From: Methanobacteriota archaeon
Lineage (GTDB): Archaea; Halobacteriota; Methanomicrobia; Methanomicrobiales; Methanoculleaceae
Length of the DNA stretch: 42,867 nt
Direction of reading: 5' to 3'
NCBI GenBank assembly: GCA_030446015.1
Contig: JASUSO010000012.1
Coordinates: forward strand, 1-42,867
The notes beneath the pieces are model-generated. The model was given only the letters and a program-made list of their open reading frames with translations, ran no database searches and was not told where the DNA came from. The position numbers were made by a program, and so were the translations under genes. This document shows, in pieces, positions 23,895-30,266 of the stretch; position 1 is the stretch's first letter; the number at the start of each line of letters is the position of its first letter.

Positions 23895-24278
23895 GCCCGT
23901 CGCCTCGCACCTGGCGGTGCTCACGCTCCGGATGTTCCGTCCGTCGCCTCTCGCACCTGGCGGTGCTCACGCTCCGGATGTTCCGTCCGTCGCCTCTCGC
24001 ACCTGGCGGTGCTCATGCTCCGTTCCTTTTGGAACGTCGCACTTCGCGTCTTCGCGTCTTCGCGCGAGGCTCACTTGAGTCTGCACTGAAATCTCACGCG
24101 AAGAACGACGCTCCCGCGGAGCGGAGTTGGAGCACCGAAGGTGCGACCCGCGAAGAACGCGAAAGGAAGTCGACGGGTTGACCTTTTGCGAACGACCTCT
24201 GCCATTTTAACGAAGTACTGAGACTGTATCGTTACCCCCGGCAAGTAATTCAAGTCACACCTGACGATGCTCAGGTAC
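23895..24278. repeat. Repeat cluster A: structured modules and 46-bp tandem repeat
   Basis: This 384-base gap carries no gene. On the minus strand three modules lie at 23905-23947, 23951-23993 and 23997-24041. They form a tandem array with an exact 46-bp period, shown by CTGGCGGTGCTCA at 23911, 23957 and 24003 (the last with T for C nearby). One module lies on the plus strand at 24104-24146 and a tail remnant on the minus strand at 24255-24273. Each full module reads (in its own direction) GCGAC, a hairpin of changing sequence, GGAG, then TGAGCACC-loop-GGTGCGA. Between the opposed modules is a 46-bp core (24058-24103) bounded by CTTCGCGCGAG and CTCACGCGAAG. Confidence 0.8.
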
Positions 24279-28075: not shown

Positions 28076-28240
28076 CTTCGCGTGAGGTTTCAGTACACGA
28101 CTCAAGGGAGCCTCGCGCGAAGAACGACGTTCCCAAAGAGAAAGGAGTTCGAGCACCGCCAGGTGTGAAATGCGACTGCCAAAATGGCAGGGGCTTGAGC
28201 ATCGCCAGATGCGAGAGCGCGAAGAGAAGTCGAGGATTGG
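28076..28240. repeat. Repeat cluster B: two structured modules
   Basis: The gap 28026-28393 has no gene. It holds two plus-strand modules. The first (28123-28168) begins AACGAC and ends GAGCACC-GCC-AGGTGTGA, with a poorly formed first hairpin. The second (28171-28214) has the perfect hairpin CTGCCA-AAA-TGGCAG and then GCATC-GCCA-GATGC, a paired change from the usual GCACC/GGTGC. Upstream, 28076-28122 is nearly the reverse complement of 24058-24103 in cluster A. After the modules, AGAAGTCGAGGATTG parallels GGAAGTCGACGGGTTG of cluster A, so similarity extends beyond the modules. Confidence 0.8.
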
Positions 28241-29401: not shown

Positions 29402-29640
29402 CGGAGCACCGGTGCTTGAAGACTTTCAGGTTGCTTGAGCACCGATAGGTGCGAAGAACGCGAAGGCTGCGCGTCCTTCGCGCAAGACCGTATCGTCATC
29501 TACACTAATAACTCACGCGAAGCCGCGAAGAGCGCGAAGACCCGGTTGGTTGAGAGTTACACTCCTTCACACCTAACGGTGCTCATGCTCCTGCCATTCT
29601 GGCAGTCGCACTTCGCGGCTTCGCGCTCTTCGCGTGAGAC
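29402..29640. repeat. Repeat cluster C: opposed structured modules
   Basis: The gap 29363-29696 has no gene. A module on the plus strand (29410-29454) has hairpin CTTGAA-GACT-TTCAGG (one G-T pair) and GCACC-GATA-GGTGC. A partial module tail, GGAGCACCGGTGC, lies just before it (29403-29415). On the minus strand a module at 29567-29610 has CTGCCA-GAA-TGGCAG and CACC-GTTA-GGTG. Between them are CTCACGCGAAG at 29511-29521 and, facing it, CTTCGCGTGAG at 29628-29638, each followed inward by GCGAAG-type repeats (CCGCGAAGAGCGCGAAG). Confidence 0.8.
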
Positions 29641-29696
29641 CATGGTTGCCGTCCCGGTACATGCAAGAAATTTCTATAATAAGATGACACGGTGCA

Positions 29697-30266
29697 CTAG
29701 CGCAACTTCTTGACCAGGAACGCAACGTTCTCGGCGAACCGCCGGACGGTTCTCATCCCTTCTTCGTCGTTTACGGCCTCACCCGGCGCCCAGCCAAAGA
29801 CCATGTTCCAGTAGGTCGAACCCGGCACGATCATGTCGTTAATCAGGTAGAACATCAGGAGTTCCTGGATCGTGGCGGTATGCCCGCCCCGCCGGGCCAC
29901 GGCGATCGGGCCGCCCACCTTCCGCGAGAGGAAGGAGTCGGACGCCATCGAGACCATCCCGATCCGCTGCAGGGCCGCCGCGACGTCGCCCCGCGCCGTT
30001 CCGAAGTAGACCGGGGTTCCCACGATGAGCCCGTCGGCCTCCCGGATCTTTTCGATGATCTCGTTTAGGCCGTCGTCGAGGGAGCATTCTCCACTGGTGC
30101 AGAGCCCGCAGGCGGTGCAGGAGAGGATACGCATCTCTCCGAGCATGATGGTCTCAGTCTCGATACCTTCGCGCTCGAGGACCTTCACGCACTCCCCGAG
30201 CACCTGTGCGGTGTTCCCCTCGCGCCGGGGACTCCCGCAGAGCAGTATTACTTTTCCATTCGACAT
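29697..30266 (-). CDS. Iron-sulfur flavoprotein (NADPH-dependent FMN reductase fold)
   Basis: The 189-residue protein has a flavodoxin-like fold with the FMN phosphate loop LLCGSPRREGNTAQVL, then a compact Cys cluster SCTACGLCTSGEC (C-x2-C-x2-C-x4-C) as in the Isf family of methanogens, then GTPVYFGTARGDVAAALQRI. Isf proteins are dimers that carry electrons between ferredoxin and flavin, often linked to oxygen or peroxide defence. I chose ATG 30266 (MSNGKVILL) because GAGGTG lies 5 bases upstream. It follows the DUF362 protein by 1 base, so the two form an operon. Confidence 0.88.
   Translation of the reverse strand: MSNGKVILLCGSPRREGNTAQVLGECVKVLEREGIETETIMLGEMRILSCTACGLCTSGECSLDDGLNEIIEKIREADGLIVGTPVYFGTARGDVAAALQRIGMVSMASDSFLSRKVGGPIAVARRGGHTATIQELLMFYLINDMIVPGSTYWNMVFGWAPGEAVNDEEGMRTVRRFAENVAFLVKKLR

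Follow-up and report, generated by a model that had tools for sequence, protein, structure and literature searches.

Short double-hairpin modules dispersed and nested in Methanoculleus genomes, and their likeness to small mobile DNA elements

Mobile hairpin clusters are, to our knowledge, known mainly from mitochondria, and lack a proven mover. The double-hairpin elements (DHE) of Allomyces mitochondrial DNA are reportedly short and dispersed and contain two hairpins per unit, like the modules described here. The SDR5-type small dispersed repeats of the cyanobacterium Nostoc are very short, mobile and nested into other repeats, and apparently differ from these modules in sequence and structure. 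Repetitive hairpin elements of sponge mitochondrial DNA are short, dispersed, two-hairpin units that have invaded intergenic regions and merged in tandem (PMC2800124), and in the GC42 clusters of yeast mitochondrial DNA changes are concentrated in the loops (PMC4478555). Among prokaryotic elements, REPINs consist of two inverted conserved ends and are accompanied by a RAYT (PMC3116915, where SDR5-type repeats are also mentioned), and MITEs are small, non-autonomous and produce a target duplication (PMC10969869).

Here, a family of modules carrying two hairpins side by side is described from the archaeal genus Methanoculleus. No description of such a double-hairpin family was found among the open-licence papers listed, as judged by titles and the openings of abstracts, and no such repeats are mentioned in the accessible part of the M. 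marisnigri genome paper (PMC3035220). It is moderately probable that the modules are selfish DNA elements of ~42 nt that are recognised by their single-strand fold, like the GC clusters of yeast mitochondria.

Modules in the window and in related genomes

The window, which is the whole stretch of DNA that was analysed, corresponds to contig C50 (42,867 nucleotides) of a Methanoculleus assembly of 2,102,627 bases in 105 contigs. The original prediction that modules lie at four places and on both strands was borne out by re-inspection, which located them in gaps at 23.9–24.15 kb, 28.1–28.2 kb and 29.4–29.6 kb and at the contig end. Of the nine copies proposed, six were matched by a covariance model (6 of at least 148 matches genome-wide) and one was recovered by a strict structural search, whereas the other two are only partial. 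The modules and remnants are as follows (G and L numbers below denote genomes and loci; hp1 and hp2, hairpins 1 and 2).

23903..23947, minus strand: double-hairpin module with decayed hp1 (CGGACGGAACATCCG) and hp2 GCACC-GCCA-GGTGC; 32.7 bits
23950..23993, minus strand: double-hairpin module, tandem repeat of the 23903..23947 copy with a 46-bp period, belonging to tandem repeat family D3; 31.6 bits
23999..24041, minus strand: complete module TGC-GA-[CGTTCC AAAA GGAACG]-GAGCATGA-[GCACC GCCA GGTGC]-GA; 68 bits, model match spanning 23994-24045
24104..24144, plus strand: complete module AAC-GA-[CGCTCC CGC GGAGCG]-GAGTTGGA-[GCACC GAA GGTGC]-GA; 61.8 bits, model match spanning 24100-24149
24255..24272, minus strand: remnant consisting of hp2 only; motif match with 2 mismatches
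28119..28171, plus strand: module with decayed hp1 (CGTTCCCAAAGAGAAAGGAG) and hp2 GCACC-GCCA-GGTGT; 46.1 bits
28171..28212, plus strand: complete module TGC-GA-[CTGCCA AAA TGGCAG]-GGGCTTGA-[GCATC GCCA GATGC]-GA, in which hp2 GCATC/GATGC is a compensating change; found by strict structural search
29418..29457, plus strand: degenerate module with hp1 lost and hp2 intact (locus L021, 1482-1521); 27.6 bits
29564..29614, minus strand: module with hp1 CTGCCA-GAA-TGGCAG and hp2 CACC-GTTA-GGTG; 59.9 bits
42843..42867, plus strand: hp1 of a module severed by the contig end (TGCGACTTTCCCGAAGGGAAAGGAG); found by inspection of the window

The modules share the layout X3-GA-[hp1]-GA-Y3-N-GA-[hp2]-GA (with N in brackets in one version), in which the GA/GA at the stem bases, the covarying outer X3/Y3 and the GNA/GNNA loops are features added to the earlier description. 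Solitary modules satisfying the strict definition are 41–45 nt long in 126 of 163 cases and range from 33 to 49 nt. Most begin with TGC or AAC, and the 3′ end is the variable 3′ arm of hp2. Among distinct modules, the commonest X3/Y3 combinations are AAC/GTT (29/108), TGC/GCT (22/108; two of three pairs) and TGC/GCA (18/108). The hp1 stems include CGTTCC, CGCTCC, CTGCC, CTGTCC, CTTCCC, CTTTCCC, CGGAC and GGCC, and the hp2 stems include GCACC, GAAGCC, GAAGACC, GAAACCC, GAAACTC and GCATC. The copies that had been read as CGGA/TCCG stems with a 7-base loop look instead like decayed CGGAYG-GAA-CRTCCG hairpins.

In 80 loci drawn from at least 104 motif-bearing stretches, adjacent hairpins gave 252 rows, compared with 36 in shuffled loci, and a gap of 8 nt separates 70 pairs (140 rows, both strands being read). 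At this gap, GA/GA flanks hp1 in 64 and hp2 in 55 of the 70 pairs, and 35 of the 64 carry an hp2 other than the retrieval motif; at gaps of 6, 7 and 9 nt (112 of the 252 rows) the stem bases are less uniform. The GA/GA, which is usually retained on both hairpins, would form tandem G-A pairs at the stem bases.

A covariance model built from 24 modules (E up to 0.01) detected at least 148 matches in the genome, among 150 candidates scored. Many lie close to a contig start: 28 begin no more than 150 bases from one, distributed over 17 of the 105 contigs. Arrays therefore probably break the assembly and collapse, and the copy number is probably underestimated. A search of 100 relatives (E up to 0.001) matched 43, including 33 of the 35 genomes of the genus; a genome of another genus of the same family (G035) had 44 matches and nine other relatives had 1–6 weak ones. 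In 294 genomes of the phylum (E up to 1e-5), matches were found in 12, all of this genus, one of 107 genera represented. Strong matches are thus nearly confined to the genus, where copy number ranges from 0 (G014, G021) to beyond the 59 candidates that were scored per genome, with 6 in G024, which is a single contig. The motif-bearing stretches among genome contigs, at least 104 in number, are mostly titled Methanoculleus, and the remaining carriers are metagenome-assembled genomes titled Methanomicrobiales, Methanomicrobiaceae or Euryarchaeota. Carriage by viruses was also considered and set aside, on the strength of 0 matches in viral contigs to one exact motif pattern.

Paired variation, loop type and the choice between DNA and RNA

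The stems, X3/Y3 and both hairpins vary by compensating change. Covariation was 0.510 compared with 0.188 in shuffles for 24 modules, and 0.445 compared with 0.174 in shuffles and 0.114 for the best slide for 127 distinct rows, in which 11 of the 14 pairs show change on both sides. Selection biases the two module sets, A1 having been produced by a script that demands hairpins and A2 comprising rows fitted to the model (150 of 209 matches); the test for hp1 used the hp2 motif alone and involved no pre-selection of hairpins. In that test, a perfectly paired hp1 stem of 5 bp or more lay upstream of 26 of 69 distinct hp2-motif matches, compared with a mean of 1.9 (maximum 6) in shuffles and 7.1 (maximum 12) in chimeras made by fusing the 5′ half of a copy with the 3′ half of a different one; in the other 43 matches, hp1 is shorter or decayed. 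The claim that hp1 changes in sequence while its pairing is kept is upheld. The hp2 motif itself (up to 2 mismatches) has 113 matches in the genome, 56 forward and 57 reverse, compared with 2 for the reversed control. That the stems are chance palindromes within a GC-rich simple repeat might be suggested by the GC-rich 9-bp CGCGAAGNN arrays in the flanks, but the reversed-motif, shuffle, slide, shuffled-locus and chimera controls were all exceeded, and this explanation, which the original prediction had named as one possible refutation, can practically be dismissed.

The loops follow a narrow pattern. In the loop, stem and flank counts given here, related copies are scored separately and only identical contexts are merged, and some genomes are counted twice, once as a named record and once under a G handle. 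A GN(N)A loop caps 43 of 69 hp1 (stems of at least 4 bp) and 76 of 88 hp2 in the 88 distinct strict modules, compared with 17 of 304 other hairpins in the window; the hp1 loops are mixed, 26 of the 69 being of other types. The share of GNNA in hp2 is inflated because the loci of this genome and most others were retrieved with motifs containing a GNNA hp2 and parts of the framework, although GN(N)A is also found in 30 of the 35 hp2 that differ from the retrieval motif. The ratio of pyrimidine to purine at the third position is unaffected by retrieval: GNYA outnumbers GNRA by 32 to 8 in hp2 (binomial 2e-4) and stands at 4 to 3 in hp1, and in the model set the ratios are 53:8 in hp2 and 11:4 in hp1. 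In that set the loop is closed by C-G in 116 of 119 hp2 and 75 of 103 hp1. Many short hp1 have the form GC-GNA-GC; among TGCGA-N7-GAGC inserts, 48 of 77 (8 of the 30 distinct 7-mers) consist of 2 bp and a GNA loop, namely GCGAAGC (16), GCGCAGC (10), GCGTAGC (7), GCGGAGC, ACGGAGT and CCGGAGG (4 each) and others (3).

The usual tetraloop of RNA is GNRA. Stable DNA tetraloop motifs are said to be headed by d(cGNNAg). For DNA mini-hairpins with a GNA or GNNA loop and at least two G-C pairs, extraordinary stability and resistance to nucleases have been described, with melting at 78°C for the GCGAAGC hairpin (PMC4686876). The loops of the modules resemble those of very stable DNA mini-hairpins more closely than the GNRA loops of RNA.

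The genes bordering the modules were located with our own ORF caller. The claim that copies are confined to gene-free gaps holds in the window, but elsewhere 6 of 116 modules lie inside a called ORF. Of the 48 module-bearing gaps in the 80 named loci, 21 are convergent, 20 tandem and 7 divergent, compared with 32, 77 and 62 of 171 other gaps (Fisher 9e-4 for the convergent class and 5e-3 for the divergent one), and the module-bearing gaps of another locus set are convergent in 20, tandem in 9 and divergent in 3 cases. Copies seem to be tolerated where no promoter is hit. Within tandem gaps, the orientation is 16 sense and 33 antisense in the 80 named loci, and 10 sense and 5 antisense in the other set.

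These data bear on whether the modules belong to a structured RNA family (a small RNA, a UTR or an RNA-stability element) that is kept by selection and has spread by duplication. The strong covariation is compatible with such a family, as are the lack of substitutions in a 298-bp block shared by five species (see below) and wobble pairs outside the core (22 of 344 X3/Y3 cells and 24 of 96 cells at the pair preceding hp2). RNA parameters also yield the fold; DNA and RNA parameters give an identical fold for three representatives, and folding alone therefore cannot choose between the two. On the other side, a search of the whole window against Rfam at gathering thresholds identified tRNA only and no module, and five loci searched with E up to 1 gave one match, to mir-1249, at 23.1 bits compared with a gathering threshold of 83. 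Only 26 of 1185 paired cells in the core stems are G-U/G-T, GNYA loops predominate in hp2, the orientation relative to tandem genes is inconsistent, copies favour convergent gaps, and copies turn over at orthologous sites. A structured RNA family, which had been one of the two readings originally offered, is not supported as the main reading by the Rfam result, the loops, the scarce core G-U/G-T or the orientation, and is considered unlikely. The case for DNA is made by the loop type, the scarcity of wobble in the core stems and the absence of a gene-strand preference.

Nested insertions, turnover of sites and the search for a mover

When a module was deleted in silico together with one of the copies of its flank repeat, another intact double hairpin was restored for 8 of 279 modules. 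In 7 of the 8 cases the junction lies in the outer hp1, within its 3′ arm and directly past the loop, and the repeat measures 3 nt in six cases and 4 nt in two:

L001, L207, L210, L242, L268 and L288: 3-nt duplication of GGG, GAA or GAG
L266: nested case with a 4-nt repeat, shifted by one base
L071: nested case in the 3′ arm of hp2, with GAAG

The eight cases represent seven genomes, as judged by contig, L266 and L288 being in the same one. In the six cases with a 3-nt repeat, the 3 nt past the inserted module match the target (GGG twice, GAA once and GAG three times). When only solitary modules were considered, 7 of 153 restored a double hairpin, compared with 66 of 20,808 shifted deletions (Poisson 8e-7); with arrays included, the contrast is weaker (8 of 262 modules and 216 of 27,190 controls). 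A looser test, which accepts any hairpin at the joined flanks, is noisy (68 of 192 and 137 of 691 controls). One further case, L028, appears nested by eye and fails the restoration test, we think through one extra G. Flank repeats of 3–4 nt occur at 66 of 163 solitary modules, compared with 29.3 when shuffled, and once identical flank pairs are merged the excess is weak (14 of 78 compared with 7.9; p 0.011); flank overlaps of at least 3 nt, with the restriction to solitary modules lifted, number 32 of 84 compared with 16.1. A target-site duplication is thus seen where the empty site can be read and is weak across all distinct flanks.

Modules also lie within larger MITE-like elements, one of which reaches into the window:

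29609..29701, no strand assigned: right-hand portion of a MITE-like element (~240 bp, CTAG-ended) that carries a 9-bp CGCGAAGNN array

This element, whose two ends are CTAGTACTTGTTGTCATC...GATGACACGGTGCACTAG (L165, L166, L167, L168, L169 and window 29609-29701), occurs as partial copies elsewhere in the same genomes, and some copies contain modules: two are found in L165/L166 and none in L167/L168, without a clean duplication. A second MITE-like family (L171-L176, L033, L082 and others) is characterised by ends of the ATATCGCCA type and by the palindrome GGGGAGGGGGG/CCCCCCTCCCC, which often holds a module flanked by two GAG. The uninterrupted GGGGAGGGGGG is present in L176. In L175 the palindrome holds a module with a GAG on either side, and in L171 the same position is occupied by a different module.

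The occupancy of orthologous gaps differs between relatives. At the first window locus, the gaps of G033 and G026 are short and module-free and other sets of modules are present in G003, G004, G006, G011, G015, G020 and G031. At the second, 0 of 8 relatives (G003, G004, G006, G011, G015, G020, G031 and G033) have a model match, and G011 has a longer gap of different sequence. At the third, the element of the window is common to G004, G006, G020 and G031, G003 has another set, and no model match is found in G033, G011 or G015. At the L012 locus, seven relatives are readable, of which G003, G006, G015 and G033 have other modules and G011, G020 and G031 have none.

The third locus coincides with a block free of substitutions. 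Positions 29404-29701 (298 bp) show zero substitutions over 280–298 aligned bases in ten comparisons of five species, while the adjacent gene shows 7–21 differences per 147–183 aligned bases (about 5–14%). Within the block (window; L145-L148), variation is found only in the 9-bp repeat units. On the right the block stops at the CTAG end of the MITE-like element, and it occurs at full length at the same locus in only five of the 35 genomes. The lack of substitutions could reflect recent exchange or a function of the block.

The suggestion of a small non-autonomous mobile element is sustained by the nested copies with short duplications, the empty or differently filled sites and the high copy number restricted to the genus. 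The arrays, the nesting and the matched arms might, however, be produced without transposition, by replication slippage or template switching at hairpins and short homologies. Tandem arrays with periods of 46 and 68 bp are present, the arms change as blocks, the flank repeats are of microhomology size and weak after removal of redundancy, and the two protein families sought as movers (see below) point to none, all of which this explanation accommodates. It does not account well for the target-matching 3 nt in the six nested cases, given that GGG follows only 12 of 163 solitary modules, nor for the dispersal of copies over both strands. A process acting on palindromes alone should, moreover, erase the GA/GA mismatches by pairing them, and their persistence (64 and 55 of the 70 pairs at the 8-nt gap) argues against plain palindrome correction, which is thought unlikely as the sole cause. 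Slippage or template switching without transposition is considered unlikely. In the 68-bp arrays at L133, L134 and L135, an inner module is combined with a truncated outer hp1; these arrays are found beside the same gene in three species with different copy numbers.

Two protein families were sought as movers in the 35 genomes of the genus. The Y1 transposase (Y1_Tnp, PF01797) exceeded its cut-off in six, namely the copy-poor G002, G014, G021, G023 and G024 and the copy-rich G010, and was not found above cut-off in the copy-rich G003 and G020 (one contig each), G005 (3 contigs) or G013 (4 contigs). A RAYT or IS200 Y1 transposase was rejected as the mover, its distribution being opposite to expectation. 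Reverse transcriptase (RVT_1) was found in only 3 of the 35 genomes (G012, G023 and G032) and not in G000, the genome of the window, and a retro-element was likewise rejected. Neither family thus leaves a candidate, and a replication-linked process is possible. In G021, which has zero model matches, the Y1 transposase family is represented by 19 matches, including many fragments, an IS200-type expansion in a lineage without double-hairpin elements.

Y1 transposition is not known to leave a target duplication. A further possibility is that the modules are REP/REPIN elements mobilised by a RAYT or IS200/IS605 Y1 transposase acting in trans, since they are hairpin-forming, extragenic and high-copy and show compensating changes, as REPINs do (PMC3116915). 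The proposed REP kind stands by this analogy; it does not stand as to the mover, as five of the six genomes with Y1 are copy-poor, G003, G005, G013 and G020, all copy-rich, have none above cut-off, and a short duplication would not be expected of Y1 transposition. Movement by such a transposase is very improbable.

A selfish element recognised by its fold could operate as follows. A module exposed as single-stranded DNA, on the lagging strand or in an extruded cruciform, would fold into two abutting hairpins, each capped in most copies by a GNA/GNNA loop, with tandem G-A pairs sealing the base. The resulting shape would be what is recognised, and the stems could then drift freely if both arms change together. 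Copying into a new site would duplicate 3 nt, or sometimes 4 nt, of a purine target (GGG, GAG or GAA), and the duplicated GA would also complete the base of the second hairpin. The favoured target would be the 3′ arm of a hairpin just past the loop, either in the module's own hp1 or in the palindrome of a larger MITE; because the target is an existing hairpin arm, nested and tandem arrays would grow. The structure, the paired variation, the nesting with duplication and the turnover of sites are established by the observations above; we infer movement as single-stranded DNA and recognition by shape, with either an enzyme or the replication and repair machinery as the mover. A bolder version, offered tentatively as a less probable possibility, is that the module is a ~42-nt replicator whose only defining feature is its DNA shape, a double mini-hairpin, single-stranded and nuclease-resistant, that an archaeal enzyme would release and re-insert at the 3′ arms of hairpins with a 3-nt duplication. 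If true, it would be among the smallest mobile DNA units in a cellular chromosome, and one without conserved inverted ends.

Relation to known small mobile elements

We regard the double-hairpin element as a probable member of the small hairpin-forming mobile elements, and as neither a REP/REPIN nor a MITE. With the GC clusters and DHE it shares a dispersed hairpin unit of ~35–50 nt, flank repeats and presence/absence differences, as a matter of kind and not of descent. Unlike GC42, in which the loops change, the Methanoculleus modules vary in their stems by paired change and keep the loop type and the GA/GA; they differ further from GC clusters in their ~150 or more copies, in residing in an archaeal chromosome and in nesting at one favoured place. 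The likeness to the sponge elements and DHE is also claimed as one of kind and not of sequence kinship, those being organellar and the modules archaeal, and GNA/GNNA loops and tandem GA are unmentioned in the portion of the sponge account that was available (PMC2800124). In contrast to REPINs, the modules have side-by-side hairpins, not an inverted REP doublet with conserved ends, and most carriers are without a RAYT gene. In contrast to MITEs, they have no terminal inverted repeats and are much shorter, and they insert into MITE-like elements. The problem of mobile hairpin clusters is thereby brought into an archaeal genus with isolates and many sequenced species, in which nested insertions show the exact ends of the unit, and which offers a natural test of whether recognition and movement can act on a DNA shape rather than on a sequence.
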